Assembly: GCA_023664625.1 (NCBI GenBank)
Contig: JAMPFD010000007.1
Location: forward strand, 87,108-151,107
Length of the DNA: 64,000 bases
DNA from: Bacillota bacterium
GTDB taxonomy: Bacteria; Bacteroidota; Bacteroidia; Bacteroidales; Bacteroidaceae
Direction: 5' to 3'
The notes beneath the pieces were generated by a model. It did not search any database, was not told where the DNA came from, and saw nothing but the letters and a program-made list of their open reading frames with translations. Below are positions 1-58,870 of the stretch, in pieces (the first letter of the stretch is position 1; every line of letters begins with the position of its first letter). A program made the translations under genes and the position numbers.

Positions 1-3000
1 GCCCAGTCTGCTAAGAACTGCAACAACCTTGTCAATTTGACTTGCAGGAATATCGGCACGCAGTTGTCCTCGGTATGGATAGAAATTTCCGCCTGCAGCC
101 TTTAACAGGTCTGCATTCTCGTAATACTGAGCACCGTCCTTCTTACTCTTAGGAACGGTGAGGTAGTGCATATTAGACCAACTACCGCCCTCTATACGCA
201 CCTTACCATCACAGCTTGTGACGGTCTCGTATTGCTTGATTTGCTGCATACGGCTGCTTATAGGCGCACCGCTGGTTTTAAGCATTGATGCGTTCCACTT
301 GTCAGGCATAAGAATACCATCATGCACATTGCCGTCAATGTCCGTGTAGCTGATGAGCTGACCCGGATAACCGCCATGCTCATCTTGTGTGTCTGCAATA
401 GCCTGCAAGATGTTGCCGGTCATGATGAAACCTTGTTTGCGTGTCTCATTCGGTATCTGTGCATCCCAGTTGTCAAGAGTCGTCGAACGGGCAGAGTCCC
501 AATTATCATTGGTCATTTTGTCAATGCTTGTCAGGGCAGTGCCGTCTGATAACTTAACCTCAACACGTCTGCGCCCGTCAAGAGTAGCGAACACTGCAAA
601 CGTAGTGGATGCGGTTATCTTCTTGTCCTTTGTCTTGTATCCGCAGAAGATAGCAGGAGAAGCAAAATCGAACACCATTGATTCAAGCGTTTCAGGTACA
701 AGATAGGTTCCGCCAACCTCAAACATGTCCAATCGTCTCAATAATTGGTCGCTGTTTGAGTTCAGCCTTATCATGTTATCCTGATGCTTGGCTTCTACTC
801 GCTCGTTGGTATCAGTCGTAATACGAGCTATAGCCTCACTCTTTTCTTCGGCGGTGCGTTTCTGCTGACGGTTGATTTTCTCCGTCTGCTTGGCGATGTC
901 TTCCGCTGCTTTGGCTTTAGCCTTCTCGTATCGTTCATTTTCGGCTGCTATGCGTGCTTTATCCTCTCGGTGTATTGTGTCCTTGACTGATTGAAGATGC
1001 CCGTCTGCATTACCGTTGTTGATTTGAGATATAACCTTTTTAACCTCTTCGGCTTTCATCGGTTTTCTCAAAACATCCATCTCTACTTTTTCTACATAGG
1101 AGTTACGGGCAAACGGATTGCTGCCATTAGGGTCAATGCCTTCTGACGACACTCTTTTATCCAATGTGGTCGCACGAAGTGGCATGACAGATATTTTAAG
1201 GTCATTGCTGCCTGTATCGTTGAGATACTTAATCAGCTCGTTGTAGCGCCTTACTACATCGTCATAGAACTCTTCTTGCTCCTTTGTACTAAGCAATGCC
1301 ACATAGCCTGTAACCTTACGGGCATCATCTTCTTGTGGCTTGTATTCATCCAGTTCACTTGCCTGTACTCGTCCTGCTCCTGCACCTGCTTTCTTCAAGG
1401 GTGTACACATCTTTTCGTACACATCTACATTGTCTCGCAGATACTCCACGACAACCTGACTACCATACTTGTTCAGCAGGTCGGGTGCTTCAACCTCGTT
1501 GCTATCGCTGTCCTGCGATGTGGTCGTATTGGCATTCAGTGATTTCAGTTTGGTTGATAGCATCATCAAGAAACGGTTCTCTGCAGGAACAGGCAAACCG
1601 AGGTTGATATAATATCCTCTGTGGACCTGTCCTGTACGGTCGATGCGTCCAATCATCTGCATGTAGTCGTTGATGTCACTCAACGGCTGTGCAATAATCA
1701 TTGTGCGTTGACGCTGGTCGCTAAATCTCTCCGATGCATGCAAGCTAATACCAGTAGAAGCAGACTTGTTGAGAATAAGCACATCAAGAGTTCCATCGTT
1801 AAACTCTCTCTGCATCTTCTTTTTGTCCTTGTCGGTTCTGCGTTTTACAACGACTTCGCCTTTGGCATTGCGCTCAACATACATATTGCGCCCAGTCAAT
1901 TCACCTACCTTGTAGCCTTTCTCATGAAGACGCTCAATGATGGCATCAAGCGGACTGATGAAGATACCGCTGGTGCTTTCACTAATGAACTGCTGCAACT
2001 CGTAGTATGCTTTCTCTCCAGCTTCACCTAACTGCTTAGGGGTGTAGTAGGCATGGCTTTCATTGCCGTCCTCGTCCTTTACGGTGTACTGCATGACGGA
2101 ATCAAGTCCTTTCAGCAAACTTGCACTAAATGTAGGCTCGGCAATGACATCACCAGCCGAATAATCCTTGATAGTGCTTTCCATCGTACTCTCCAGCGCA
2201 ATGACAGGGTGACGACCTGCATTGATTTCAGCTTCTACCTCATCTGCGATAGCATCAACTTTCAGAGCCAACATCAACTGCTTGGTGTAGTTGTATGTCT
2301 TGCTTGCGAACGGAACATTCTCAACGCCCATCTTGTCAGTACCTCGCTTAACACCTGCACTTTCTGCGGTGATAGCAAGTTCCATGTCAAGCTCTTCAAT
2401 CTTTGGCTTAACATAGTTCTCCTGAAATTTGATGATAGCATTAAACGCTGCAATAGTCTTGTCGTAGTTTTCTCTTGCACGTTTAATGGTTGCAGGGTCG
2501 TTGATAGTCTTCCAGTCAGTCTTGACATCGCTCATATCTCGCTCACGACGAACCATCTGACCTGCATTAGTAAGCTCACGGCTCATAATCTCCTGCAAGG
2601 TTACACCTCCCTTTTCGATGATACCAATCATCTTGTCGGGTTCTACCTTTGCTTGGCTCATGGCTGTGCGGATTGCATACAACGGCATTGTATCAGGACG
2701 CTTTGCAAAGGTAGCACTTGCGAATGTTGCAGCCTTTGCCGAGCGGAGAATACTTTGCAGGTATGCGCCTGTGTTGCTTGAACCTGCTGCCGTGTGACTC
2801 TCGTCAAGGAACAGGTAATTATCGTTAGCAATAGTACGCAAAAATGTTGCTTTCGGAGTAGCTTTACCCTCTTTGGAAGCCTTGCTCTTCTTCACTCGTG
2901 CGCCACGCTTCTTTGCTGCTTCTTCCAACTCCTGCTGGCTGATAGCATCACCTGTATTTACCTGCGAATAGGTCAGCACTGCAAAGTCATATTCATCTGG

Positions 3001-6000
3001 CAATTCAACCGATGCTAAGACCTTAGCCATTTCCTTTTGAGAAAGAGGCTTATGCACTGCATTTCCTTTTGCATCAACCATTGCACCGTCTGAGTTGAAG
3101 ATAAACGGTTTTAAGTCTCCGCTACCGACATCTACCAAATCACGGTAAATGTCCGAAAACAAATCAGCCTTTTGGGTAATGAATACAGGTTTCTCGCCAC
3201 GCATAACAGCCCATCGGATAAGGGCTGCCATCTGGCGACCTTTACCGACACCTGTTTGGTCTCCAATAATCAAAGCCTGTCCTTTCTTCATCTGATAGAT
3301 AGCCATTGCAACACTATCCATCTGCTCTGCAGCAAGTGCGGCATGTGCGTCTTCGATGGTTGCATAGCCAAGTTCGTTCTTGATGAACTCGTCTATACTG
3401 CCATACTCTTGCTCTATCTGTGACAGAACATTATCCATTGCCTCCACCATAGCAGCAGGGGCAACGCTATTAAGACTGAACGCACCGTTATGAGGGCGAT
3501 AAGATAACTTTTCCTCTGTGAGTGTTCGTTTCTTTTGCTCAGTCTTTAATCCCACTCTGTTCGGGGAAACTCCCACTCCAGCCACTCGCTTAGTGTCAGG
3601 TTCGTTGCTTCGTCCGCTGTCTCCTCGCTCACTTCTTGTAGGGGTGTTCCTATCTTCACCATTTCCAGTATTCTCTCTACGTTCTCCTCGTAGAACTCCC
3701 TCGCTCTGCTTTGGGCTTTGTTCCACGTTGGTGCGCTCTCCTCGTTCTCCTCGTCTGCTTGTATCATCTTTGCGAGATTGTTCACGATGTCCCTCTCCGT
3801 CAGTTCTCCCTGATGGTTGGTTATTGACAGGTGCAGACTTCCTTTCTCTGCTGCGTAATATTTCTGTGCCATTTGTCTTTTCGTTAGAATTTAATACTTC
3901 GTTCAATATCTCGTACAAGTCTTCAAAGCTTTCTGCCTTGCGTAATGCCTTGCTTTGCACAGGTGGATAGATAGCTGTCTGCGCTCTTTCCTCCTCGCTT
4001 CTACGACCGTTAATCAGTATCATGCGAGTAGGGAAAGTTGTACCCTGCTTGGCATACAGCTTGCCGTCCATATTAATAACGCCACTAACATTGTAATGGT
4101 CATACAGATATGTGAAGAAAGGTTTCAATCCCTTTAGTCCACCGTTGCTTGCATACTCCATGTTACCACCGATGATTATTGCTGCTCTGCCCTCGTCTTT
4201 CATGCTGGCAAGAGCGTTCAAGGTAATTTGTGGGTCAAGTCCGGGTATCATCTTACCATCATACTCAACCGCCTCACGCTTGCCGAAAGGAGGATTGGCA
4301 ATCACGGCATCATACTTCTCGTCACCCTCGAACGGCTCTGTTGCGTCCTGCTGGGTAACTTGTGCAAAACCTTGTTCACGCAAATTGTCAAGTCTTGTTT
4401 CGTCCAGTTCGTTGACATGTACCTGTTTTACAGGAATTGTGAATACCAACATTCCGTTTCCTGCTGTTGGTTCAAGAACCTGCGCAGATGGCTGTGACTC
4501 CATTGCAAAGCGGTCAGCTATCCAAGACATCGGAAGCGGTGTTGAATACTGTTGCATTTTGATGCGGTTACTGCTTCGGGCTGCAATAGTCGGCTGCATA
4601 TCATACAGCTTGCAAACGAGGTCGTAACTCTCACGGCTGTCTCTGCCATATTTGGCAATAACCTTTCGTGCAGCTCTAACCAATCCGTCCTCTACAAGCT
4701 CCTGCAAAAGAATATCGGTCCGTCCATCATTGTCCACTTCCATACCCAACTCACTTGCACGCTTACGCAAGTCTATGATGCTGCGGTATGGCTTTGTGTC
4801 CGTATCAAGAGCCGAAAGCATATCATCCTTAACGGCAAGTGCAAACTTACGCTGTATACTTGCATCAACAGGAACAGGAGTTGCGTTCTCTTCGCTGTTC
4901 TGTTGTTCTGTTGCTTCCGCTTCGTCTGTGCCGCCAAACAAATCAGCGATTAACGTCTGTGAAGATACCTGTTTTTTCTTAGGTTTAGGTTCTTCTTTGA
5001 CGGATTCTTCTGTACTTGGTTTAATTTGGCTGAATTTAGCAGCCTCATACATTATAGGCGCATTGCCTGTGTCAAGTGTCACATCAACACCACCGCCAAA
5101 ATCAACGATGGTTGCTTCTTCCCACTTGTTCTTGCCGTCATTGCGCTTGAAAAGCACCTTGTCACCAACCTTGAAACCATGAGTATCGGTTTCCTTCTGT
5201 TTTTTAGATTCGGCAAGTTGCTTCTCAACTTCTGGAGTAACAGTGTAAGGAAACTCGTCACGTTCTGCCATAGCCTCAAACTCTTTCATACGCACTTCCG
5301 CTGTTGACTCCGCTTTCTGAATGTATGGTTTTACATCAGAAGACACTCTGCGCAAGAGTTCTGCGTAGGTTAGGATATTATCATCAATGAGATGCGACGG
5401 AATCCAAATATTTTCACTGCGCTTTGCGTCTTGTCCTTCAACACGATACATAAAGCGTGTCATCATGAGATTGTCGCCTGCGAATGTCCGCAAACCACGT
5501 TCTGATGATGGCTCAAGCACAATGTTCATGTAAAGTTCACTACCCTCAGAGAGTGGCAAACGTATAACTATGTCGCCACCTGCAGGAGCTATATTCGCAG
5601 TCACGACATTCTTACGCTTGCTTCTGTTCGCTGTTGTGGCACCTGTCACTTTGTCAATATTCAGACCGAGGTCGGCTACTAACTGCTTAGCGAGCTTGAC
5701 AGCATCGGCAACAGCTTTCTTCTCTGCGTTATGCATGTACCCGTTGGCTTCGTTGAAATCATTTTCCACTGGGTCGGCTTCATAGTAGCCTAATAGTGCC
5801 AGTTGGTCATTTACCTTAGCAAGAGCCTCGTCTATCTGTTCGGCAGCTCGGTTAAGTTCTTTTGTGTCTTTTGAAGTTTCTGCAACACTTTCTGCTTTGC
5901 TTGCAACAGATGCTGCTTTTTTTGCAATAGTTTCTGTATCTGCTTTTGTTTGTTCATTCTTTTGTCTCCTTTCTGTATTACGTTGGTTGGTTATTGCTTC

Positions 6001-9000
6001 CTTTGCCTCGGTTGCCTGTTCCTCGGCTTCACTCTCAGCTACAACCATTTCAGCAGTAGCCAGAGCGTTGATTGATGCCTTGTCGAAGTTGGCGACATCA
6101 AACTTTGCCACATCATCGTAGCTGTCCATGCTATTAGCCAGTTCCTGTGCCTCTGGCAGGTCACGCACAGCATTGTAGAATGATTTGAGGTAAGGACGAA
6201 TAGCATCGCCCAAATCCTCAATCATCGCCTTGGCATACTGAGCAAACTTTCTTGCACCGCCCTCAATGTGATATACCGCCATTTCTGTACCGATAGCAAG
6301 CATTTCAGGGTCAATACCCATATTGAGTTGGTTCATCTTTGCCAGCATACGCTTCTTCAACTGCTCGTAACGCTCATTGGTCACAAGTTTGTGTATATCG
6401 TCTGCTGGGGCTTCCTGCTTGTCAGATGTAGCACCCTGAGTTGCCTCGGCTTTTTCTATACCACTGGTTTCCTTGACATCGTTCAATGACAGAGGAGCAG
6501 CATCTTCAAGGCTTTCTCCGCTTTCGTCCATAACGGCATCAGCCAATTTCTGTGCATCCTCGGTAGTGCGCATCATAAAACCACCTTTCTCTTTGTCATA
6601 CCAGCCTTTCAACTCCTTAGCAAGTGTCTTAGCGTTACGTACTTCGTCCTTGGATAGTTCGCGGTCGAATTTCACAAGCTGCATGTCAAGAACCTTCCCA
6701 CGCTTGGTTGTGTACTGCGCTGGCTCAACGGAGTACCCCGACTTGTTTGTGCTGCCGGCTTCTTCCTCTATTGGAGTTGCATGGTCACTCAACTTTGTTT
6801 CCCCCTTAGTGTTCAAAGCACCAAACAGGTTCTCAACATTCACTTTTGCCACTGCTGACTTCTCCTGTTTGTCCTCCTTTGATGTTGTAGCAGTGACTTC
6901 TGCCTTGCTGAAACGTGGGTTGTTGTCGGCATTGAATGTCGTTGAGGCTGTTTCGTTACCGCTGCTGTCAAGTTCGGCAATAGTGCATAAGCCTGTCTTT
7001 GTGAACTTCTTGATACGATACAGCCTGTTGGTGTAGTAGTCACGCACAACATCGCCAACCTTGAAATTGCTAAGGTTTTGCTTCTGCTCTGCCTCCAGTT
7101 TTTTCTTTACATCGCTGTACTCTACAAAAGGTTTTGTCTTGCGGTGGCTGCTGTCAATCCACTTTTCAAAGTCCTCCAAGTTTGCTGGAGTGTTCATAAT
7201 CTTGTGAGTATTCTCCCAGCCCTTTTCATAGTTGCTCAAATAAGCAGCATAGGCATCCTCAGCATTGTTGAAGCCAAACATTACCTTATGCTCATCAAAA
7301 GAACCGTCCTCATTGTACTGGTCAATCACGAATACCTTTCGTCCGTCCCAACTATCAATGTTATCAGCGAGGAACACATCTATATGGTCTCCGTCCACAC
7401 CCTCAGTACCCCGAATGTAACCATAGGTGTTGTGCATTTCGGTCTCCCACTTGTTGCCGTTGGCATCTACGCCACTGCGCACAGAGCCTTTAGGGTTCTC
7501 TATTGTTACATCAAAAGCCCCAATCTGCACATGACCTTTCTTGTAGTTACCTGCTTCTTTCTGCTTCTTGGTAGGATTTTGTTCTGTTTTTGCCTCAGCC
7601 TGCGCAATTTTTTCGCCTAACTCGCTTGTTTTACGAGAATTATTTGTAACTTTGCCGGCAGAAGAAACAGAAACGGTTGGCTTACCGTTGGGTTCATCAG
7701 ATGACATGCCGCCCTGCTCATCTTTTGAAAGCGAAGAGCCATCTGAAACGGCATTGTTCGGTTGCTGAGGTTCGGTCTTAGCGACCGTTTCTTTTTTATT
7801 GGAGTACCCTTTGCGGAAAATGCCTGCACTATTGACATTCCAATATGAGCCATCTTTGGACAACTCCACAAAGAGTGTGTTATCATGCTTGTCTGTAACT
7901 TGAAGAAGGTATGTTGGTGAATTTATTCCTTCTCTACGCTTTCCAACTCTGATGTTCTCTTCATCGTAATTTTCTGCAACATAGCTAACAAACTCTTCAA
8001 CAGACGAGAATCCTGCTGCTCTTATCTGTTTCCCATGATTAGCTTCGATATGTCTCAAACCATACCCTTTGCCATTCTCGTCTTGAAAACCAGAACTGAG
8101 TTTTATTGGAGCTGCTGTTAGTCCTGTATTCTCATCAATAGTGCCAAATTCATATTTCCCTTTAGGGGATCTAACAAATGGAATTCCGTTTTCATCTATT
8201 TCTCCGGTCTCGTCCAAACCACCTTGCCGTTCTGCAAGATGTCCCATATTTCCTCGTCTGTCAACGTTCCGTAGTCTTTCACCTCCATTGTTGGTTGCGG
8301 TTTCGTCCTGTCCGCTACCGCTTTCAGTTCCTCCTGCACGGTCGGCTGTCCCATTTCCGTCCTCACTTCGTTCTCCTGCCTCAGAAGCTCCCCGGCTTCC
8401 TTGTCCGTCTTGGCTTGCTGTACTATCGCCAGCCAGTACATTGTTTCGTTGTTGTCCATTATAATCTATGTTTAATGTTTCTTTAATTGCCTGTGCGAGA
8501 CTTCTCGGTGTGTTGTCCGGCTTCTCAAACAGAGTCTCTTCCTGTGTGCCTTGGATAAGGTCGAACATTTTGTTAAAGGTAGCCTGTATCAGTGATTGGC
8601 TTTCGCCCTTATACAACGCTGCAAGGTTCAGGGCAAAGTTACTGAAATACTCGGCAGGTAGATAGCTTTCGCCTGTAACATCGTCCATCTGGTACTGCCT
8701 CTTCCAGCCCTCTATCGCCAAACGTACATCCTTGTAGTTTTTTGCTTCAACAAACGTTGCATCTTGCATAAGTGCATAGAAAGCCCTGATTGAGTTCTGT
8801 ATCTCCTCAACCATTCTTTCTGCATTCGGACTATCATAGTCCCTGTATGCTGTTGCAAGGATAGTCTTTTGTGCCTTTGCAGGAAGAGTATTGAACATTT
8901 CTTCAAGTCGGGTACTGCCACCTTTGAAGATGCTCTGATACATGATTCCTTTCAAGTCGTTCTTTGCCTCGGCTGTAAGGTTACCCTTGCTGTCAAATGC

Positions 9001-12000
9001 GCTCTGATATTGTGTCGGAGTGATGTAGCCTTTGCCACTCATCCATTTCAATACATCTACTCCGTTGGTGTCTACAAGACCGGAGAAAGAGGTTTCATCG
9101 TCAGCCGAACGCAACAGCAGGTTGGCAAACGAACCCATGTTGCCGCCAATCTTCTGCACGGCATTCTTCGGCTTGATACGTTCTGTACCGCCACTCTCGG
9201 TGTCCTGAGCTACGAACTGACCCAACTCAATAGCTTTGTTGTCGTCCACATCAAGCATATTAACCAATACAGGGCGTTCCATCGCCTCAATGTCGGCTGG
9301 ATCCAAACCGAACTCTTCGGCATGGTCGGTCAGGTACTGCTTGTATTTGGTTGCCTGCTCCGGTTCGCTTTGCCACATCTGTCTCAGTGCATCGCTTCTG
9401 TTGTTGCCCTGTATGACCTCGCCACGGCTGTTTACGGTTGGTGCGCCTGTGTACGCTGTCACGGAAGATGTAATCTCTTCCGGACGCATATTGGCTGCTA
9501 TCTTGCGTGAAGACATCTTGCTGGCGTCATCATTGCGCTCCTTTGGCTGTGCCTCATCAATGAAATGGAGAGGATTGCGTACTCCTCCTACATGACTCGG
9601 CTGTAACTGGTCCGCATTTATCAACGCAACACTGCCGTCTGCAATGTCGCTATCGCTGAAACGTACCTGCACATTCTTACCTTTCTTTGCTCCAAGAGGC
9701 TGCTGCCGGTCTATCTTCGTGCCGGTTACTCGCCTGTAACCTCTTGCACGTGCGTCCTGTGGCTTGTCGTCCACCATGTCAGGCACACCGTTCAGGGCTT
9801 CACGCTCTATGCGCTCGGCTTCCTCACGCTCGGCACGGAGCTTTTCTTCCTCTGCTCTACGGATAGCGGCTTGCTCTTCGGCTTCCTTTCTTCTGGCAAG
9901 GTCGGCTTCCTGCTTTCTGCGCTGTGATGTACCTGCAATCTTCTTCCATACAGACACAACATCTTGTGCTGCAGAAATAGCTGCTTTGCGCTCTTTCTCT
10001 GCTGCAATCTTATCAGCGATAGTTACACCGCCTTTAGGCTTTGCCTTTTCCAGCTTCTTCAACTCGGCTTCTTTGTCAGCAAGCATGGCGTCTGCCACGG
10101 ATTGGGCAATAGCCTCATCCCCCTCAGTCTGCTCAACAATGGCATCCCAAGCGGTATCACTGTCAGTTTGCTCATAGATTGGCTGTCCTTGCTCGTCCTT
10201 TGGAATACGCTCTAAGGCGGTATGTTGCGGTGCCGTTAGAATATTTTCTTCTACAATGTTACCATTTTCAGGAATATTTTTAGTATCATTGTTATCTGTT
10301 TCTGTACTCTCTGCGACCTCAGCAGATTCAGGAACGATAATAGGCTGCTCGATAACCTCACCGTTATGCTCCACCAACATATCGTCCAGCTCGTCACGTG
10401 AGAAGAGGTTGACTCGGAAGCCATTGATAGGGTCTTCTGTGTAAACCTCATACTTGCCATCGTCATCAACATCGGCACTGATGCTTCCACGGACAGAATT
10501 TCCGTTTTCGTCACGCAATGTTACCTCATCATTCAAGGCATACTGCGGACGTGTTGCTTCCTGTTCGGTTGCTTTTACCTGTGCATTTTCTATGGCTCTC
10601 TGCTCTTCAAATTGGGCTACACGAGCCATATTTGCAGCATCAACCATTTCTTGAAGAGCGGATACAGGAATAGGAACAACATTAGTGTTATCCATAGACA
10701 CGTTTACCGTTCCGTCCCCATTATCCACAACACCATCAGCGTTAGGCGTAATAGTTACACTCGCCTGTCTGCCGTCCTCGTCCACAACATCGAAAGTGTT
10801 TCCTGCCTCCAGAGTGATTGTACCGTCAATCTCGTTGGCAAATTTCTGTGCTGCTGACTCAACGATAACGGACTCAGCTTCTGCTTTCGCCTGATTTGGG
10901 TCTATGGCTTCATCAACACTAAATACAGCATCGGGGGCAACTTGTTCAAGTTCGTCTGTCTCTGCATCACGAACAATGATGCTTTGGTCGGAAGCCTGTA
11001 AGTCCACGCCTGTGCCATCTGGATATGTCACAACATTACCACTGACAATATAGACCTTACGGTCGTCCTGCTTCATCGTTGCGCCCTGTATCATACCTGT
11101 ATCGGTATTTACACGGGCATCAACCATTGCATTACTGTTCTCCACCTCGGCATCAACATCGTCATGAATACGCTGCTTCATGCCGTCATACACCTGTTTG
11201 GTATTCAGATAGTCATTGACAGCATCTCTCTGCTCGTCCGTCCACTCGGTGTTGTCAGCTTGAGCAACTCCATCGTCCCAATTATCTATCATCTGCAAAT
11301 CCTCTGAGGTGAGGGCTTGCTCAACACGCTGACGTTGATACTCCAGCATATTCTTTGCATCGTTGCGTTCCTGTGAAGATGTCGCCTCGTAGCCATTCAG
11401 GTAGGATTCATTAAGCTGTTGCTTGTTTGGGTCCTGTTCACCACCACGAGACTGTGCCATGCTTGCAAGGTTGTAGCCTCGCATAATCATAGAGCGTTCC
11501 ATATAGTCAAGAACCGCTGCCTTTTCCTTATCAGTGAAGTCTTTATCATTGACAATAGCCTCTGCAACGTCACCGAAATTTTCGTTGGTTGTGAGGTCAA
11601 GCGTAGCTTTCAACGGCTCCCATATATCTTTGCCGAGCAATTCGCCTACACGAGCATCGGATTTGTTCACACCGTGACGCATAGAAGCGTACTGTACAGC
11701 GTTGAAAGTGTGCTTTGCCGCACCCATCAGACCCATAGACAGAGCCATACCGCCCCATATATCACCATGAAAGTCCTTTGTAGCAAGCAGATTAGTGCGT
11801 GTGCCGTCAGGGGTTTGCACATAGGCATCGTCCAGATTGAGCATAGTGCGCCACAATTGACCGTAATATTCCTCGGCAACCTCACCAACATAGTCACTGA
11901 CACCCATCTTGTTGAACATCTGCTGTGTCTGTCCCATGATACCGCCCAGTGCCTGTGCGTCAGCTTTAGCCAAAACACCGCTCAAACGCTTTGCGCCTAC

Positions 12001-13560
12001 GACATTGGCAAGTTTGCTCATATTGCCGAGGGTTACAACAGGGTCAAGGTGTGCGCCAAACATCTCGGAATAGTTCTCAATGATGGAATTTGCTTCGCCC
12101 TGCCATATTGCGTTGCCCCAAGTCTTATCATTTGAGAAATCGTAGTTGCCGTTCTCGTCAACAACAACATCACCAAGTTTACGGTCTATGATGTCGGCTG
12201 CTGTCTTTCCTGCCTGTACTGTGTTGGTCATAAGAGGCGCACGAACAAGCAAATCATCTGCTGTAGTGCCAAGAGCCTTGATAGTCCAGTTTGTAGCCTC
12301 GTTTGCCAAACCTTTAAGACCGTTATTCTTTACATACCTCTTGAAACCTTGCTTCGCCATTTCTTCAACGGCTTTCTTGCCGACTGCCTTTGTCGCAAGT
12401 TTAACACCCTGTTTGCCGAAAATGTTCAGGGCATCGTAACCTCCACCTGTCAAAACGAAGTCAACCATGAATGCAGGCATTTCTCCAGCCATGACACCCC
12501 AACCGTAAAGTTTTTGGTAATTTCCACCATATTCTTGCTGTGCAGCTTGATTCAGTGCAGTTTGCTCCATCATTATGTCAGATGCTTTTTTCTCACCCTC
12601 TGTATGACTGTTATTGCGTTCCAGCATTGCTGATGCATCCATCATGTCAGAAAAGCCTGCATCCCCCAGAACAGAACTGCCGATGCTTCCCAGTCCTCTG
12701 CTTACACCGCGCCAGAAACCTACATCGTCACCATGGTTGCGGTTGTATTCGTCCTGAAGCACACGAATCCTTTCATTTACTTGTGTAAGTGCTGCATGTA
12801 ACTTCTTATACTCGTCATTTGCATAACGCTTGTTAGGCAATGTCTGGGAATAATAAACATTACCTCCTGTCACATTGCCTGCATCTGCCAACATAGCCAA
12901 AGGAGAATCGTTCTTTGTGTCTTCCTCTTTGGCTATCTCGCCCATACGCTTCTCTATTTCATCACGCTGCTTGGTTGCCCTGCGTAACTGACCGCTGACG
13001 CTCATGTCTGCTGCCTGTCTATATTGGAAGCTCTCTGTATCTGCAATAGCCTTGCTGGTGTACCTGTTACCTGCTGGCGTGATGTAAGTCTGCTCAAACT
13101 TGCGCTTCGATGGATTGTACTGCATCTTGCTTTTCTTGGTCTGCTGACCGAGGTTGATACCGTACTCCATCATATTGCTCATGCGGTCGTTGAAATCAGC
13201 TGCCATTTGCTGTGTTCTGCGCATAGTGGTATTGATTTCAGTGCTCATTCTCGCCTTGTCTGCTTCGGAGAGCGGTGTACCTTTCGGCTTTGCACTCTGC
13301 GGTGCTTCTGGGTTCTTTGTTGATGATGTTGCCGGCTCTGTCTTAGGGGCAGGAGTGGAAGCAGTACCAAATCCAAGGTTCTTCTCGAATTGGTCGTATG
13401 CCTCCATCTCATAGCCATCGTTGACAAGAGCATCATAAGCAGCCTTGCGCTTACCTACGTCCTGCAAATTCTTGCGAAACTGCTCTTCACTCTCCATCTC
13501 GTAACCATCCGACACAAATGTATCGTACAGCTTCTTGATTTTGTCTTTGTTATCGTTCAT
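1..13560 (-). CDS. Giant phage/mobile-element large polyvalent protein (partial, runs off left edge)
   Basis: An open frame of 4,520 codons starts at the ATG at 13558-13560 and reaches base 1 without a stop. Modules recognised by eye, in order: two 30-residue repeats (residues 8-64, each with a DGYEME core); a hydrophobic/helical segment (about 280-450); a long Lys/Glu coiled coil (1157-1256); a ParB/DdrB-like domain (about 1325-1480, with IQGNNRSDALRQ); a Barnase-EndoU-colicin-RelE-like (PBECR) domain (about 1800-1930, GLRHIEANHG); an inorganic-pyrophosphatase-like domain (about 2000-2120, DGDHIDVFL); small KVGDxV beta-barrel linkers (near 1010, 2165, 2790); an N6-adenine MTase fold (about 3000-3110, LEPTAGNGML and NPPFG); and a strawberry-notch-type SF2 helicase (about 3400-4030, GDQTGVGKG, DESHTA, QMIGRIDRTGQ). 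Polyvalent proteins of this kind are known from phages and conjugative elements and are thought to enter the new host with the DNA to counter defences. It is third in a minus-strand run behind two small virion-like genes. The domain names are family knowledge; their activity here is untested. Confidence 0.9.
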   Translation of the reverse strand, partial: MNDNKDKIKKLYDTFVSDGYEMESEEQFRKNLQDVGKRKAAYDALVNDGYEMEAYDQFEKNLGFGTASTPAPKTEPATSSTKNPEAPQSAKPKGTPLSEADKARMSTEINTTMRRTQQMAADFNDRMSNMMEYGINLGQQTKKSKMQYNPSKRKFEQTYITPAGNRYTSKAIADTESFQYRQAADMSVSGQLRRATKQRDEIEKRMGEIAKEEDTKNDSPLAMLADAGNVTGGNVYYSQTLPNKRYANDEYKKLHAALTQVNERIRVLQDEYNRNHGDDVGFWRGVSRGLGSIGSSVLGDAGFSDMMDASAMLERNNSHTEGEKKASDIMMEQTALNQAAQQEYGGNYQKLYGWGVMAGEMPAFMVDFVLTGGGYDALNIFGKQGVKLATKAVGKKAVEEMAKQGFKRYVKNNGLKGLANEATNWTIKALGTTADDLLVRAPLMTNTVQAGKTAADIIDRKLGDVVVDENGNYDFSNDKTWGNAIWQGEANSIIENYSEMFGAHLDPVVTLGNMSKLANVVGAKRLSGVLAKADAQALGGIMGQTQQMFNKMGVSDYVGEVAEEYYGQLWRTMLNLDDAYVQTPDGTRTNLLATKDFHGDIWGGMALSMGLMGAAKHTFNAVQYASMRHGVNKSDARVGELLGKDIWEPLKATLDLTTNENFGDVAEAIVNDKDFTDKEKAAVLDYMERSMIMRGYNLASMAQSRGGEQDPNKQQLNESYLNGYEATSSQERNDAKNMLEYQRQRVEQALTSEDLQMIDNWDDGVAQADNTEWTDEQRDAVNDYLNTKQVYDGMKQRIHDDVDAEVENSNAMVDARVNTDTGMIQGATMKQDDRKVYIVSGNVVTYPDGTGVDLQASDQSIIVRDAETDELEQVAPDAVFSVDEAIDPNQAKAEAESVIVESAAQKFANEIDGTITLEAGNTFDVVDEDGRQASVTITPNADGVVDNGDGTVNVSMDNTNVVPIPVSALQEMVDAANMARVAQFEEQRAIENAQVKATEQEATRPQYALNDEVTLRDENGNSVRGSISADVDDDGKYEVYTEDPINGFRVNLFSRDELDDMLVEHNGEVIEQPIIVPESAEVAESTETDNNDTKNIPENGNIVEENILTAPQHTALERIPKDEQGQPIYEQTDSDTAWDAIVEQTEGDEAIAQSVADAMLADKEAELKKLEKAKPKGGVTIADKIAAEKERKAAISAAQDVVSVWKKIAGTSQRRKQEADLARRKEAEEQAAIRRAEEEKLRAEREEAERIEREALNGVPDMVDDKPQDARARGYRRVTGTKIDRQQPLGAKKGKNVQVRFSDSDIADGSVALINADQLQPSHVGGVRNPLHFIDEAQPKERNDDASKMSSRKIAANMRPEEITSSVTAYTGAPTVNSRGEVIQGNNRSDALRQMWQSEPEQATKYKQYLTDHAEEFGLDPADIEAMERPVLVNMLDVDDNKAIELGQFVAQDTESGGTERIKPKNAVQKIGGNMGSFANLLLRSADDETSFSGLVDTNGVDVLKWMSGKGYITPTQYQSAFDSKGNLTAEAKNDLKGIMYQSIFKGGSTRLEEMFNTLPAKAQKTILATAYRDYDSPNAERMVEEIQNSIRAFYALMQDATFVEAKNYKDVRLAIEGWKRQYQMDDVTGESYLPAEYFSNFALNLAALYKGESQSLIQATFNKMFDLIQGTQEETLFEKPDNTPRSLAQAIKETLNIDYNGQQRNNVLAGDSTASQDGQGSRGASEAGERSEDGNGTADRAGGTESGSGQDETATNNGGERLRNVDRRGNMGHLAERQGGLDETGEIDENGIPFVRSPKGKYEFGTIDENTGLTAAPIKLSSGFQDENGKGYGLRHIEANHGKQIRAAGFSSVEEFVSYVAENYDEENIRVGKRREGINSPTYLLQVTDKHDNTLFVELSKDGSYWNVNSAGIFRKGYSNKKETVAKTEPQQPNNAVSDGSSLSKDEQGGMSSDEPNGKPTVSVSSAGKVTNNSRKTSELGEKIAQAEAKTEQNPTKKQKEAGNYKKGHVQIGAFDVTIENPKGSVRSGVDANGNKWETEMHNTYGYIRGTEGVDGDHIDVFLADNIDSWDGRKVFVIDQYNEDGSFDEHKVMFGFNNAEDAYAAYLSNYEKGWENTHKIMNTPANLEDFEKWIDSSHRKTKPFVEYSDVKKKLEAEQKQNLSNFKVGDVVRDYYTNRLYRIKKFTKTGLCTIAELDSSGNETASTTFNADNNPRFSKAEVTATTSKEDKQEKSAVAKVNVENLFGALNTKGETKLSDHATPIEEEAGSTNKSGYSVEPAQYTTKRGKVLDMQLVKFDRELSKDEVRNAKTLAKELKGWYDKEKGGFMMRTTEDAQKLADAVMDESGESLEDAAPLSLNDVKETSGIEKAEATQGATSDKQEAPADDIHKLVTNERYEQLKKRMLAKMNQLNMGIDPEMLAIGTEMAVYHIEGGARKFAQYAKAMIEDLGDAIRPYLKSFYNAVRDLPEAQELANSMDSYDDVAKFDVANFDKASINALATAEMVVAESEAEEQATEAKEAITNQRNTERRQKNEQTKADTETIAKKAASVASKAESVAETSKDTKELNRAAEQIDEALAKVNDQLALLGYYEADPVENDFNEANGYMHNAEKKAVADAVKLAKQLVADLGLNIDKVTGATTANRSKRKNVVTANIAPAGGDIVIRLPLSEGSELYMNIVLEPSSERGLRTFAGDNLMMTRFMYRVEGQDAKRSENIWIPSHLIDDNILTYAELLRRVSSDVKPYIQKAESTAEVRMKEFEAMAERDEFPYTVTPEVEKQLAESKKQKETDTHGFKVGDKVLFKRNDGKNKWEEATIVDFGGGVDVTLDTGNAPIMYEAAKFSQIKPSTEESVKEEPKPKKKQVSSQTLIADLFGGTDEAEATEQQNSEENATPVPVDASIQRKFALAVKDDMLSALDTDTKPYRSIIDLRKRASELGMEVDNDGRTDILLQELVEDGLVRAARKVIAKYGRDSRESYDLVCKLYDMQPTIAARSSNRIKMQQYSTPLPMSWIADRFAMESQPSAQVLEPTAGNGMLVFTIPVKQVHVNELDETRLDNLREQGFAQVTQQDATEPFEGDEKYDAVIANPPFGKREAVEYDGKMIPGLDPQITLNALASMKDEGRAAIIIGGNMEYASNGGLKGLKPFFTYLYDHYNVSGVINMDGKLYAKQGTTFPTRMILINGRRSEEERAQTAIYPPVQSKALRKAESFEDLYEILNEVLNSNEKTNGTEILRSRERKSAPVNNQPSGRTDGEGHREQSRKDDTSRRGERGERTNVEQSPKQSEGVLRGERRENTGNGEDRNTPTRSERGDSGRSNEPDTKRVAGVGVSPNRVGLKTEQKKRTLTEEKLSYRPHNGAFSLNSVAPAAMVEAMDNVLSQIEQEYGSIDEFIKNELGYATIEDAHAALAAEQMDSVAMAIYQMKKGQALIIGDQTGVGKGRQMAALIRWAVMRGEKPVFITQKADLFSDIYRDLVDVGSGDLKPFIFNSDGAMVDAKGNAVHKPLSQKEMAKVLASVELPDEYDFAVLTYSQVNTGDAISQQELEEAAKKRGARVKKSKASKEGKATPKATFLRTIANDNYLFLDESHTAAGSSNTGAYLQSILRSAKAATFASATFAKRPDTMPLYAIRTAMSQAKVEPDKMIGIIEKGGVTLQEIMSRELTNAGQMVRRERDMSDVKTDWKTINDPATIKRARENYDKTIAAFNAIIKFQENYVKPKIEELDMELAITAESAGVKRGTDKMGVENVPFASKTYNYTKQLMLALKVDAIADEVEAEINAGRHPVIALESTMESTIKDYSAGDVIAEPTFSASLLKGLDSVMQYTVKDEDGNESHAYYTPKQLGEAGEKAYYELQQFISESTSGIFISPLDAIIERLHEKGYKVGELTGRNMYVERNAKGEVVVKRRTDKDKKKMQREFNDGTLDVLILNKSASTGISLHASERFSDQRQRTMIIAQPLSDINDYMQMIGRIDRTGQVHRGYYINLGLPVPAENRFLMMLSTKLKSLNANTTTSQDSDSNEVEAPDLLNKYGSQVVVEYLRDNVDVYEKMCTPLKKAGAGAGRVQASELDEYKPQEDDARKVTGYVALLSTKEQEEFYDDVVRRYNELIKYLNDTGSNDLKISVMPLRATTLDKRVSSEGIDPNGSNPFARNSYVEKVEMDVLRKPMKAEEVKKVISQINNGNADGHLQSVKDTIHREDKARIAAENERYEKAKAKAAEDIAKQTEKINRQQKRTAEEKSEAIARITTDTNERVEAKHQDNMIRLNSNSDQLLRRLDMFEVGGTYLVPETLESMVFDFASPAIFCGYKTKDKKITASTTFAVFATLDGRRRVEVKLSDGTALTSIDKMTNDNWDSARSTTLDNWDAQIPNETRKQGFIMTGNILQAIADTQDEHGGYPGQLISYTDIDGNVHDGILMPDKWNASMLKTSGAPISSRMQQIKQYETVTSCDGKVRIEGGSWSNMHYLTVPKSKKDGAQYYENADLLKAAGGNFYPYRGQLRADIPASQIDKVVAVLSRLG
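3546..3872 (-). CDS. Candidate nested gene A overlapping the giant protein's MTase-helicase linker
   Basis: A 108-codon ATG-to-stop frame lies wholly inside the giant gene, one base out of register with it. It reads as an ordinary acidic, helical soluble protein (for example RDIVNNLAKMIQADEENEES and a Trp-rich end LSEWLEWEFPRTEWD). The giant frame over the same bases is low-complexity Arg/Gly/Glu/Ser/Thr with no predicted fold, and lies between the methyltransferase and helicase modules. Bacteroidota genes often lack a Shine-Dalgarno; here an A-rich GAAAAGA precedes the start. No family is recognised. It could be an overprinted gene, an internal frameshift product, or a chance open frame favoured by composition. 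Confidence 0.4.
   Translation of the reverse strand: MAQKYYAAEKGSLHLSITNHQGELTERDIVNNLAKMIQADEENEESAPTWNKAQSRAREFYEENVERILEMVKIGTPLQEVSEETADEATNLTLSEWLEWEFPRTEWD
8196..8459 (-). CDS. Candidate nested gene B overlapping the linker before the PBECR-like domain
   Basis: An 87-codon ATG-to-stop frame is embedded in the giant gene, in the same alternative register as nested gene A. Its product looks natural: MDNNETMYWLAIVQQAK at the start, then a Glu-rich helix, then EEIWDILQNGKVVWTRPEK at the end. The giant frame here is a Gly/Ser/Glu/Asp/Asn-rich spacer between the ParB-like and PBECR-like modules. The upstream sequence is A/T-rich without a clear ribosome site. No family is recognised. An immunity or partner protein for the adjacent nuclease-like module is conceivable but purely speculative; a chance open frame cannot be excluded. 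Confidence 0.4.
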   Translation of the reverse strand: MDNNETMYWLAIVQQAKTDKEAGELLRQENEVRTEMGQPTVQEELKAVADRTKPQPTMEVKDYGTLTDEEIWDILQNGKVVWTRPEK

Positions 13561-22327: not shown

Positions 22328-22704
22328 GGATATAACGATTTGGCAGGGGGGAGCGTAATACTGTGCATCCTTTGGATATGCTGTAATATATGAATTCTTG
22401 ATGTCTATTGTCAAATGAAAATGGAGGCAGATGCAAAAAGGTTACGTTTTGCAATACAAAGGGTTACGCTTTATCATATAAAAGGTAACCCTTTGCAGAA
22501 TAAAAGGTAACCTTTTGTTTTGTAGTTGGCAAATATTTGGAAAACAACAAATTAGAGGTGTTGTGCAAAAAGCGTACTTAACGCCTTGTTGTAAAGTCTT
22601 TATCAGAGGAATATTTTGTCAGGTATATTATCTCTATCGTATAGAAAGCCGTTTTTTCGATGCTGCATTTCAGACCGGTAGTGTGCTTGTCCCAATTTTA
22701 ATAT
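22328..22704. other. Convergent intergenic region with period-22 palindrome array
   Basis: No gene is supported between the rlmD-like stop and the shared terminator. The region holds the 22436-22516 array and a segment (22566-22592, CAAAAAGCGTACTTAACGCC then TTGTTGT) resembling one near the integrase junction. Confidence 0.7.
22436..22516. repeat. Period-22 array of four 15-bp palindromes (locus 1)
   Basis: Four units begin at 22436, 22458, 22480 and 22502, exactly 22 nt apart with 7-nt spacers: AAAAGGTTACGTTTT, AAAGGGTTACGCTTT, AAAAGGTAACCCTTT and AAAAGGTAACCTTTT. The last is a perfect palindrome about a central base. Unit 1 is complementary to unit 4 (one mismatch) and unit 2 to unit 3 (two), so the whole array can also fold as one long hairpin. 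Confidence 0.95.
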
Positions 22705-22751
22705 AAAAAAACGTTTGCATGCCACAATAAGGTGAATGCAAACGTTTTTTT
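22705..22751. terminator. Bidirectional terminator between rlmD-like and TPR protein genes
   Basis: AAAAAAACGTTTGCAT (22705-22720) pairs perfectly with ATGCAAACGTTTTTTT (22736-22751) around a 15-nt loop. A- and T-runs on both flanks suit both converging genes. Confidence 0.9.
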
Positions 22752-22838
22752 ATTGTGTTTATTTAATGGATATTTATTTGCAATGCTTCAGATATTCCGG
22801 TATTATACGGAAAGAAATAGCTTTTATCTATGATGTGG

Positions 22839-24542
22839 CTATTTATATTTCTTTATCAGCGCATCCGCCTGCTGGTATCCGAGGGAGCGGGACTGTTCAA
22901 GATTCAGCAGTCCTTCATGCTTCTTGCCAAGGTTGCACTGGGCGACACCGAGCACGGCATACGCCTCGGCAGTCTTGTCGTTTATGATGATGGCACGGTT
23001 GGCATCGGCAATGGCCTCGTCATACATACGTAGTCTGAGTTGCAGTGAAGCGCGCTCACAATAATAAATTGTACTGTTCTGATTGAGGTCAATGGCTTTT
23101 GTGATATCTTCCAAGGCCTGTTGGAAAGCCCGTGCCTCCCGTTCACACAAAAAGCGGTTATAGTAGAATTGCGGAGCCAGTTGTGTGCCCACCATGAGTT
23201 TCTCATAGAGGTTGTAGTCAAGCATAGCCTTACGGTACTGTTCCAACTCCTGGTACATTGCTCCACGCTGGAAGACATATTTTGCCGACTGGTATGTCAA
23301 TGGCTGTGGGCAGGCAGCAATGACACTGTCCATATTTGCCATGATTTCCTCTGCCGAAGCACCTGCGGCCTGCTTGCATGCCACAGCCTGGAGCATGTTT
23401 TCTGCACTTCTGAGGATAGTGCCCTGTAATTGCATATAGATATTGTATGCGTCATCATATTTCTTCTGCGCAAAGAGAATCTGTGCTTGTTGCTGCAGAT
23501 AGATAGGGGCGTTGTCAATGGTGTAGGCCGTCTGTGCCTCTTTCATAGCCTTGTCAAGCGACCATGAAGAGTAGGGGATGTCTCCGAAATAAAGTTCTTT
23601 CCTAAGTATAAGGTCACTATAGGTATGATGAGCCTCCGCCTTGTTTTCTGCAGTGGCAATCACTTTCTGCATGTCAGCGTCGGCCAGTGCAAATTCCTTG
23701 TTTTCAAGATGCAGGCGTGCACGCGCCTCATAGCCGTCGTGCTTGTCAGGATATGAAGAGATAAACTGCTCTACAACGGCTTTGTAGGCATCGCCTTTCC
23801 TTTGCTGTGCGGCAAAGAAAAGAGCCAGTTGAGCCTCTTTATATGTCTCAGGCAATACGGAAGGTATGCCGGACTGTGCCAGCAGTGCAGCCTGTGTTCC
23901 TACAGCCTGATATTTGAATTCTGAGGGGTACAGTGCGCTTATGGCATTGACAATCCCTCCTTTTACGCCTTTTTGTATGAGTGCCACAATCTCACCATTG
24001 TCATTGATGACAGGGCAGAAATCTATATCGTCAGGCGCGTGAAGGTCAAGGATATAGAAAGGGTAATCTTTTGCTATGCCGTTTCCTTCTTTTGGTTTTG
24101 AGAATGTCTCAATCTTTGCTACAGAAGCATGGAGCAGACGCTGGCTTTTCACACCATAGCAGGCAAGCCATAGGTTTGATTTCTCAGGAGCAGTCGTATT
24201 TGCTATTGTTGCTTTCGGTGTTGAACCTTTGACACGGAACTTACATACATCATATAGGTCGTTAGCACCGATTATTCCGTCTATTTCATATTTCTTTCCG
24301 TTAGCATCAACAACAACAGCCTTGCTTGCGCCTGCAAACGGTGTCCACTGGGTTATCGCCTCGCCTTGTCCGCTGACGAACACACCATGTGATGTCGCCA
24401 GCGGAGTGCCGTCTGCTTTGAATGTATTGATGGAAAAGACAGCCTGTGCAGCTTTCTTCACTTGTGAGTTCTGTGCCATGGATGTGCTTTGTGACAGCAG
24501 AAAGGCAAATAAAATAAAGAGTGTATATGATATGTTTCTCAT
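22839..24542 (-). CDS. Secreted TPR protein with a degenerate trypsin-like N-terminal domain
   Basis: The 567-aa product starts with a signal peptide (MRNISYTLFILFAFLLSQ...SMAQ, about 23 residues), so it is exported. Residues about 30-210 follow the outline of an S1C/trypsin-like barrel (SHGVFVSGQGEAIT, DLYDVCKFRV, DIDFCPVINDNGEIVAL). However, the position expected to hold the catalytic His reads Gln/Glu, and the Gly-x-Ser-Gly-Gly segment is replaced by DFCPV, so it should lack protease activity. Residues about 235-560 form tetratricopeptide-like helical repeats (for example YEARARLHLENKEFALADAD and AEAYAVLGVAQCNLGKKHEG). A periplasmic scaffold role is plausible; no specific function is known to me. 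It follows recN in the same direction after a 49-nt gap and ends at a bidirectional terminator. Confidence 0.8.
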   Translation of the reverse strand: MRNISYTLFILFAFLLSQSTSMAQNSQVKKAAQAVFSINTFKADGTPLATSHGVFVSGQGEAITQWTPFAGASKAVVVDANGKKYEIDGIIGANDLYDVCKFRVKGSTPKATIANTTAPEKSNLWLACYGVKSQRLLHASVAKIETFSKPKEGNGIAKDYPFYILDLHAPDDIDFCPVINDNGEIVALIQKGVKGGIVNAISALYPSEFKYQAVGTQAALLAQSGIPSVLPETYKEAQLALFFAAQQRKGDAYKAVVEQFISSYPDKHDGYEARARLHLENKEFALADADMQKVIATAENKAEAHHTYSDLILRKELYFGDIPYSSWSLDKAMKEAQTAYTIDNAPIYLQQQAQILFAQKKYDDAYNIYMQLQGTILRSAENMLQAVACKQAAGASAEEIMANMDSVIAACPQPLTYQSAKYVFQRGAMYQELEQYRKAMLDYNLYEKLMVGTQLAPQFYYNRFLCEREARAFQQALEDITKAIDLNQNSTIYYCERASLQLRLRMYDEAIADANRAIIINDKTAEAYAVLGVAQCNLGKKHEGLLNLEQSRSLGYQQADALIKKYK

Positions 24543-40577: not shown

Positions 40578-40651
40578 GGTGCGTTAGTTCAGTTGGTTAG
40601 AATGCCAGCCTGTCACGCTGGAGGTCACGGGTCCGAGTCCCGTACGCACCG
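40578..40651 (+). tRNA. tRNA-Asp (GTC), copy 1
   Basis: 74 nt. Acceptor GGTGCGT/ACGCACC with discriminator G, D-arm with GTTGGTTAG, anticodon stem CCAGC/GCTGG with loop CTGTCAC (anticodon GTC), and T-stem ACGGG/CCCGT. The T-loop reads TCCGAGT, with C at position 55 where U is nearly universal. The 3' CCA is not encoded. It is identical to copy 2, 100 nt downstream. Confidence 0.97.
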
Positions 40652-40677
40652 CATTTTTAATTCAGTATAGCACTTTT

Positions 40678-40751
40678 GGTGCGTTAGTTCAGTTGGTTAG
40701 AATGCCAGCCTGTCACGCTGGAGGTCACGGGTCCGAGTCCCGTACGCACCG
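40678..40751 (+). tRNA. tRNA-Asp (GTC), copy 2
   Basis: Exact duplicate of copy 1 at 100-nt pitch with a 26-nt spacer, including C55 in the T-loop. No separate promoter is seen, so the pair is probably one transcript. A terminator follows at once. Confidence 0.97.
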
Positions 40752-40753
40752 CG

Positions 40754-42440: not shown

Positions 42441-43214
42441 CTATAGCCAACTGTCTATGAGGCATCGTGCTATGGACAGTTTCTCCGGGATTGTGGGCAT
42501 ATTGTCACGTGTGAACCATCCCGCAGTCTTGAGTTCTTCTTCCTGCAGATGTATGTCTCCGGAGACGTAGTCTGCATGAAAACCAACCATCAGGCCGCAA
42601 GGGTAGGGCCATGGTTGTGAACCGAAGTATCGTATGTTTGTTATCTCAAGTCCCGTCTCCTCTCTGACTTCTCGTTGTACAGCTTCTTCGAGACTTTCGC
42701 CGGTCTCGACAAAACCGGCGACCAGCCCATAGTAGTCCCGTTTGAAATTTCTCGCCTTTACAAGCAACACCTGTTCTCCCTTATGTATGAGCACAATGAT
42801 GGCAGTAGCAAGTGCAGGCCATATTTCCTTGCCACATTTTGAGCATCTTTTTGAGATGTCCGTGGCGAGTTCCATCGGACTGCCGCAGCATCCGCAGAAT
42901 TTTGTCTGTCTGTCCCAGTACAGTATTTCCTCACACTTGCCGGCTTTAAGGTAAAGAGGAAGCGGTATGAGCCGGTAGGCCTGTCGTAGCTCCACCATCT
43001 CATATCCGTCCATCTCCGTAATCATGCCGTCAAGTTCTACAGTCTTGACAGGATAGCTCTTGCCTCCGTTATGTTCAAATGGGGTGATGTTGTGCACAGT
43101 GTTACATGGCTGCAGCGATACAGGACAGTCTTCCTGAAACGGTACAGTGTATTGCCCCTCTTTATCTTTTTGTAATAGGAGGTCACCTTTACAAAAAACA
43201 AACCAGTACTTCAT
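42441..43214 (-). CDS. nudC: NADH pyrophosphatase / NAD-cap hydrolase (Nudix)
   Basis: The 257-aa enzyme cleaves NAD(H) to NMN(H) and AMP and can remove NAD caps from RNA. It has the family order: a divergent N-terminal domain (1-95), a zinc ribbon (CGCCGSP...CSKCG, about 108-128) and a Nudix domain with box GFVETGESLEEAVQREVREE. The NudC-specific SQPWPYP follows the box by about 17 residues. The ATG overlaps the stop of the upstream 5'-nucleotidase by one base (TAATG), so translation is coupled. The pairing suggests nucleotide/NAD salvage, although the nucleotidase is exported and NudC is cytoplasmic. Confidence 0.95.
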   Translation of the reverse strand: MKYWFVFCKGDLLLQKDKEGQYTVPFQEDCPVSLQPCNTVHNITPFEHNGGKSYPVKTVELDGMITEMDGYEMVELRQAYRLIPLPLYLKAGKCEEILYWDRQTKFCGCCGSPMELATDISKRCSKCGKEIWPALATAIIVLIHKGEQVLLVKARNFKRDYYGLVAGFVETGESLEEAVQREVREETGLEITNIRYFGSQPWPYPCGLMVGFHADYVSGDIHLQEEELKTAGWFTRDNMPTIPEKLSIARCLIDSWL

Positions 43215-45058: not shown

Positions 45059-45117
45059 AAAAGGTTATCTTTTACAGTGTAAAGGGTAACCTTTTGCAGT
45101 ACGAAAAGTAACCTTTT
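45059..45117. repeat. Period-22 array of three 15-bp palindromes (locus 2)
   Basis: Units start at 45059, 45081 and 45103, exactly 22 nt apart with 7-nt spacers: AAAAGGTTATCTTTT, AAAGGGTAACCTTTT and GAAAAGTAACCTTTT. It lies between two same-strand genes, 10 nt from the stop of the upstream GHL10 gene. Same family as 22436-22516. Confidence 0.92.
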
Positions 45118-46621: not shown

Positions 46622-46659
46622 AGGGAATATGAATGCTTATGGTATATACAAATAGATGT

Positions 46660-46677
46660 GTCCCGGAAGTCCGGGAC
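46660..46677 (-). terminator. Small GC hairpin between MBL-fold and GHL10 genes
   Basis: GTCCCGG pairs with CCGGGAC around AAGT, directly past the MBL-fold stop. No strong T-run follows, so it may attenuate rather than end transcription. Confidence 0.45.
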
Positions 46678-46682
46678 GCATC

Positions 46683-58789: not shown

Positions 58790-58870
58790 AGACGGTAACC
58801 TTTGGTACCGTAAACCGTTACGGTTTGATATGTAAAAGGTGACACTTTATCCTATAAAGTGCCACCTTTT
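58790..58870. repeat. Period-22 array of four 15-bp palindromic units (locus 3)
   Basis: Units start at 58790, 58812, 58834 and 58856, exactly 22 nt apart: AGACGGTAACCTTTG, AAACCGTTACGGTTT (perfect palindrome), AAAAGGTGACACTTT and AAAGTGCCACCTTTT. Units 3 and 4 are reverse complements with one mismatch and form a 15-bp hairpin followed by GTTTTG. Placed directly after the mutS2 stop it may act as a terminator. Confidence 0.9.

Follow-up and report, generated by a model that had tools for sequence, protein, structure and literature searches.

Evenly spaced four-palindrome arrays with species dialects suggest built-in chromosome organisation in Palleniella and its relatives

Three arrays in the window and the family they belong to

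The window analysed here, a stretch of 64,000 nucleotides from contig JAMPFD010000007.1 (positions 87,108 to 151,107; assembly GCA_023664625.1), holds three arrays of short, palindrome-like units that recur every 22 bp. The host genome is that of a Prevotellaceae member close to Palleniella, and the MutS2 protein encoded next to array 3 shares 91% identity with its Palleniella muris counterpart. Array 1 (22436..22516) consists of four 15-bp units, at 22436, 22458, 22480 and 22502, which carry 1, 3, 1 and 0 mismatches to AAAAGGTNACCTTTT; it is intergenic, between the convergent genes rlmD (plus strand, ending at 22327) and a TPR-like gene (minus strand, 22839-24542). Array 2 (45059..45117) has three units, at 45059, 45081 and 45103, with 1, 1 and 2 mismatches. 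It lies 10 bp beyond the stop of a minus-strand gene without an NCBIfam match (45128-46621), with a 5'-nucleotidase-like gene (43214-44947, minus strand) downstream. Array 3 (58790..58870) begins directly after the mutS2 stop (58788) and has four degenerate units, at 58790, 58812, 58834 and 58856, with 3, 4, 2 and 3 mismatches. Among the neighbouring genes are rlmD and mutS2 as well as some whose function is unknown. Between units stand 7-bp spacers (for example 22451..22457), whose form over the arrays is RYNNNRY, with letters that vary.

An earlier note on this DNA had placed palindromic units at these three sites at a precise 22-bp spacing. The positions and the exact pitch hold, but the palindromes are mostly imperfect. 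Standard repeat searches see the arrays incompletely: Tandem Repeats Finder picks up array 2 alone, and a direct-repeat listing contains arrays 1 and 2, array 3 being missed at that listing's identity limit. As a feature separate from array 1, the region between rlmD and the TPR-like gene also contains a long A/T-flanked hairpin (~22702-22757) with the look of a bidirectional terminator, which a simple scan did not list.

The arrays of the window are real, local copies of a genome-wide system. By the earlier note, a genome scan returning nothing beyond chance copies would have removed the novelty; the outcome was the opposite. Across the whole 2.87-Mb genome, AAAGGTNACCTTT (at most 2 mismatches) gave 608 matches against 200 for the reversed control, and unit pairs of this type at 22-bp pitch (at most 3 mismatches in all) numbered 231 against 0. 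Within 864 kb of the window's own genome (G000; 800 kb plus the window), the distances between hits with at most 4 mismatches were dominated by 22 bp (n=132), 44 bp (n=87) and 66 bp (n=46), the next commonest being 1 bp (n=15) and 88 bp (n=8). A position-weight search of partial genomes found 138 arrays: 61 in G000 (864 kb), 32 in the P. muris genome (G697, 397 kb), 25 in G698 (400 kb) and 20 in G304 (400 kb), among which one call, C26:95331, is probably false. Exactly four units are present in 91 of the 138 (36, 26, 20 and 9, respectively). If the surveyed densities hold throughout, each genome would carry roughly 120-330 arrays.

The repeat scaffold is RAAA-N7-TTTY followed by the 7-bp spacer. 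In G000 and G697, A1A2, G5T6, A8C9 and T12T13 are almost invariant, and positions 3-4 and 10-11 vary; elsewhere some positions are looser (A1 at 70-72% in G698, G5 at 44-50% in G304). The autocorrelation of AA/TT peaks at 11, 22, 33 and 44 bp. To judge from the sequences, this position-specific conservation resembles that of a dyad protein motif. A detector that ignores the core, which recovers 60-97% of the known four-unit arrays, was run on 2.06 Mb; at 32 or more of 36 points it reported no positions outside known arrays, and at 31 points it reported one. Its reversed-sequence control gave 0, 2, 7 and 3 positions at 32 or more points in G000, G304, G697 and G698, which we assume to be arrays read backwards. 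The same detector found four-unit arrays at pitch 22 only (pitches 20-24 tried) in eight further genomes that were sampled. Applied to the mutS2 loci of 80 Prevotellaceae genomes (669 kb in all), it detected 7 arrays, and shuffled sequence gave 0.

Dialects, placement and spacing

The pitch and the A/T arms are constant among species, and the core changes. Over one set of 397 genomes from the genus, with 3 mismatches allowed and a cut-off of at least 20 pairs, the GGTNACC pattern was counted in 22 genomes, CGGNCCG in 8 (541 pairs in G347, 378 in G452) and GCTNAGC in 16, of which 10 were new (307 pairs in G545, 277 in G333). Six genomes were counted under both GGTNACC and GCTNAGC. G452 has 1 GGTNACC pair against 378 CGGNCCG pairs, and G000 has 231 against 0. 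The union of the three patterns covers 40 of the 397 genomes, in which the reversed control reached at most 2. The count is a minimum, since there are further cores, such as that of a P. falsenii array in locus L102. Across the order, the GGTNACC form was found in 1 of 295 genomes, the window's own.

Reversed controls also gave hits in three genomes without forward hits, namely 49 in G565 and 11 in G527 (GCTNAGC) and 12 in G558 (CGGNCCG); these may be further dialects with flipped arms (TTT-core-AAA). In G362 the GCTNAGC pattern found 60 pairs, two of them inside a stretch where the array survey saw none. The survey likewise saw no arrays in G412, G404 and G424 (60 kb each) or in G583 (40 kb), which, since it missed those of G362, is not proof of absence.

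The earlier note had proposed that intergenic enrichment and gene orientation be checked. Although coding sequence makes up 79-85% of the surveyed DNA (genes from a simple home-made caller), a gene overlap is seen for only one of the 138 arrays; of the others, 77 have co-directional neighbours, 33 convergent and 22 divergent ones, and 5 are at contig edges. From the lengths of the intergenic regions, about 24 divergent and 22 convergent placements would be expected among the 132 classed arrays, so that divergent regions are not avoided.

Along the chromosome the arrays are spaced quasi-evenly. We compared the coefficient of variation (CV) of the intervals with that of 2000 random intergenic placements, using, in the four genomes of the position-weight search, contigs with at least five arrays, which excludes the window's own. 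In P. muris the pooled CV was 0.33-0.36 against a null value of 1.09, with a mean interval of about 12 kb and a smallest interval of 7.2 kb for arrays of at least three units (3.5 kb counting two-unit arrays). The corresponding values were 0.50-0.64 against 1.06-1.09 in G000, 0.50-0.56 against 1.10-1.12 in G304, where three very short intervals (0.1-0.2 kb) from off-register duplicates of one array were kept, and 0.27-0.30 against 0.89 in G698, from 5-9 intervals only. Two species with other cores behave alike: G591 (0.47 against 0.90, with 1 of 21 arrays dropped for a score below 33) and G545 (0.39 against 0.92). The CV was thus below that of random placement in all six genomes tested. Depending on contig and cut-off, the mean lies between about 7 and 26 kb, so the spacing is regular without having one set length. 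Among the tested stretches the longest gap, 65 kb, is on contig C11 of G000; other long gaps reach 46 kb. The C11 gap, the sole long gap inspected, holds an array-free island (~28-81 kb) whose part at 40-65 kb is low in GC (0.36-0.40); a scan of 10 proteins of the gap found two tyrosine integrases, type I restriction genes and AbiEii/DUF6088.

RNA, mobility, regulation and uptake as alternatives

Several explanations compete with a site for a chromosome-organising protein. The first is that the arrays act in RNA, as strings of hairpins at transcript ends that terminate transcription or stabilise mRNA, with units 1-2 and 3-4 forming two stem-loops. This was attractive initially. Stop codons precede arrays 2 and 3, and all three arrays of the window fold much better than shuffles (z of -7.1, -6.5 and -4.4); units 1-2 of array 2 form a 21-pair stem in which two G-U pairs are the only non-Watson-Crick pairs, and units 3-4 of array 3 form a 17-pair stem with one mismatch, followed by a T-rich stretch. 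Inter-unit complementarity (u1L-u2R) over the 91 four-unit arrays has a z of 4.3, units 1-2 and 3-4 are reverse-complementary in G697 (z 4.4), G698 (z 3.0) and, weakly, G000 (z 2.1), and arrays lie closer to stops than to starts, with a modest excess in convergent regions. Other statistics do not follow this pattern. When co-directional four-unit arrays are read on the sense strand, G-U differences are as frequent as A-C differences (97 and 97 of 1620 cells); the divergent share is about that expected; and the upstream stop is at a median of 66-247 bp, depending on the species. The complementarity is absent in G591 (z -1.6) and G545 (z -1.4), for which 20 of 21 and 14 of 20 arrays were used, and between units 2 and 3 it is not raised in any of six genomes. 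With G591 and G545 added, the pooled z is 2.9, and neighbouring units resemble each other in direct orientation too (pooled z 4.0). Since the complementarity is confined to some species, what is conserved is something other than paired stems. Nor would transcript ends predict even spacing. Given the lack of avoidance of divergent regions and the equality of G-U and A-C differences, terminators or RNA hairpins are unlikely. The hairpin string listed as a candidate in the earlier note is not supported, in view of the same equality and the patchy occurrence of complementarity.

A curated structured RNA can also be set aside. At gathering thresholds Rfam reported only three tRNAs in the window and no family at the arrays, and the best sub-threshold match at array 1 was mir-1397 (28.1 bits against 70). 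Elsewhere in the window stand twin tRNA-Asp(gtc) genes (40578-40652 and 40678-40752, plus strand, 100 bp apart) and an open reading frame of at least 4520 amino acids (1-13560, minus strand) that continues past the window edge.

A second possibility, which we consider quite improbable, is a non-autonomous mobile repeat, either a repetitive extragenic palindrome (REP) or bacterial interspersed mosaic element (BIME) served by a REP-associated tyrosine transposase (RAYT), or a miniature inverted-repeat transposable element (MITE), with target immunity producing the spacing. The copies are indeed numerous, dispersed and intergenic, as in REP/BIME families, some of which are described as species-specific (PMC3733652), and target immunity would yield over-dispersed intervals. 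The history of the sites reads differently. Both flanks could be mapped in the surveyed part of P. muris for 15 of the 61 G000 arrays, and at 10 of these 15 sites P. muris has an array as well; in the reverse direction 12 of 32 were mapped and 10 of the 12 had an array, mostly the same pairs. No G000 array could be mapped to G698. Beside mutS2, an array stands in the same register in locus L062 (detected) and locus L061 (by eye in the alignment), and at C26:120914 the four-unit register aligns although the flanks scarcely do, units and spacers having been replaced. Direct repeats of at least 5 bp flank 19 of the 91 four-unit arrays, against 17.2 expected by chance, and the highest identity between four-unit arrays, within the surveyed part of each genome, is at most 0.81. 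With matching sites, chance-level flank repeats and no closer copies, the arrays look mostly inherited and retained by form. The absence of excess target-site duplications and of near-identical copies led us to reject a MITE.

A REP/BIME family was rejected on other grounds. A Y1 transposase (PF01797) is present in 3 of 14 genomes (G304, G452 and G362) and was not found in the other 11, including G000, G545, G591, G656 and G697-G699; this search covered the Y1 family and no other transposases. There is no invariant GTAG/CGTC tag in the consensus RAAAGGTWACCTTTY-RYNNNRY, and, unlike REP/BIME elements, the arrays have a fixed pitch, usually four units and no recent copies. Viral contigs contained no exact GGTNACC pairs in a search limited to this dialect without mismatches. 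Contig C2 of G304 carries two Y1 transposase genes (42744-43100 and 46554-46910) that score equally, lie on opposite strands and are separated by about 3.5 kb. The BrickBuilt MITE minisatellite of Porphyromonas gingivalis is likewise a tandem repeat of a Bacteroidales genome, but its 23-nt unit is unrelated in sequence, and it is described with terminal inverted repeats and up to at least 18 units (PMC4596501).

Third, the arrays could be multi-dimer operators of the regulon of one transcription factor, an idea we rate as low in probability as mobility. The anatomy of the motif is that of an operator array. The quasi-even spacing, the lack of preference for divergent, promoter-bearing regions and the diversity of the window's neighbours all speak against it.

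Fourth, and least probable of the four, evenly spread self tags might serve uptake or recombination, as DNA uptake sequences do. Neisseria uptake sequences have dialects, as the arrays do among the genomes here, and the single acquired island that was inspected is array-free. Even spacing has also been reported for Haemophilus and Neisseria uptake sequences, an earlier report of its significance being cited in PMC1939737, but these are single short motifs, about 1965 of them in one genome (PMC1939737), whereas the fixed-pitch, four-unit arrays are far fewer, at mean distances of about 7-26 kb, and elaborate.

Finally, CRISPR arrays have near-identical direct repeats and unique spacers of about 30 bp; spacers of 7 bp and divergent units, usually four per array, do not fit them.

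The arrays as candidate wrapping sites

Action at the level of DNA is indicated by the slight dependence on orientation, the equality of G-U and A-C differences and the exact helical phasing. The explanation we prefer, with a probability of roughly 0.5, is that the arrays are DNA sites wrapped by a putative four-dimer protein that organises the chromosome. Each array would be a double-stranded site for a sequence-specific, multimeric DNA-binding protein, with one dimer per 15-bp pseudo-palindrome. The pitch of two helical turns and the A/T arms phased at 11 bp would place the four dimers on one face, and the tetramer of dimers would have some 80-90 bp wrapped or stacked on it, like octameric complexes of the Lrp/AsnC type. 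Spaced ~7-25 kb apart, these assemblies could be chromosome-organising points, whether boundaries of supercoil domains or nucleoid anchors. If the specificity of the protein drifts by lineage and the sites follow, core dialects would arise on one scaffold.

The closest known relatives of this layout are the arrays of Lrp/AsnC (feast/famine) octamers, including those of Ss-LrpB and FL11, in which pseudo-palindromes are bound by several dimers; a review of Lrp gives site centres two or three helical turns apart and ~100 bp of wrapped DNA (PMC2995911). Dyad sites two turns apart are what the 22-bp pitch provides. Lrp/AsnC arrays are operators near target genes, in contrast to evenly spaced arrays at ~120-330 per genome with lineage-specific cores, and we take the resemblance as a likeness and not as membership. 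Wrapping of DNA has also been proposed for RemA, another octameric ring (PMC8481266). The earlier note had suggested a nucleoid-protein or regulator binding array, or a domain boundary, with a pitch of about two helical turns; the 11-bp phasing, intergenic position and even spacing fit these suggestions, which remain inferred because no protein was found.

A number of observations weigh against a wrapped site of this kind. Convergent regions are modestly favoured (33 arrays against ~22 expected), the next start is farther (273-385 bp) than the upstream stop, and 2 of the 20 G545 arrays overlap open reading frames under a crude mask. Mean spacing is not constant among contigs, a second spacing measure is weak in G698 (p 0.02-0.12), and P. 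muris has no array at 5 of the 15 mapped sites. Units are often asymmetric, which is awkward for a plain homodimer (self-pairing in G591 is 0.02 at position 6), and the reverse complementarity of units 1-2 and 3-4 is not predicted by the model. Searches for candidates have given no binding protein. Lrp/AsnC genes occur in 14 of 14 genomes, in 1-3 copies each, without tracking the array counts, and the recognition helix of the one Lrp ortholog that was compared does not differ between G000 and G545, whose cores do; by this comparison one Lrp paralog is disfavoured as the binder.

Among architectural proteins, Noc, MatP and SlmA have palindromic chromosomal sites, which are single and biased to the origin or terminus. 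In nine array-rich genomes, a search for ParB_N genes found one each in G000, G304, G545, G591 and G699, two in G697, three in G698, four in G452 and none in G656. Noc nucleoid-occlusion sites were rejected, five of the nine having no additional ParB.

At the domain barriers of Escherichia coli we know of no repeat that is dedicated, sequence-defined and evenly spaced, and such marks are, to our knowledge, hardly known in bacteria at all. Estimates of the spacing of supercoil or topological domain barriers in E. coli run from 10 to 100 kb (PMC9071471), a scale like that of the arrays, which makes array spacing plausible for topological domains. In agreement with the earlier note, which knew of no family with this layout, full-text searches of open PMC papers, a body that leaves subscription journals mostly uncovered, returned no description of such arrays.

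Even, four-palindrome arrays with species dialects thus suggest a built-in organisation of the chromosome. In a bolder and more tentative form, possible but less likely than the wrapped site itself, they might be a chromosome ruler: nucleosome-like, four-dimer wrapping stations set between genes roughly every 10 kb, whose reader would be a fast-diverging protein; the folding dialects of related species would then be mutually unintelligible and acquired DNA recognisable as station-free. The dialects offer a natural experiment in which co-variation could identify the putative reader protein. If the arrays set domains of ~10 kb, a long-standing question, what fixes the boundaries of bacterial topological domains, and whether they are encoded, would become testable in cultivable commensals.
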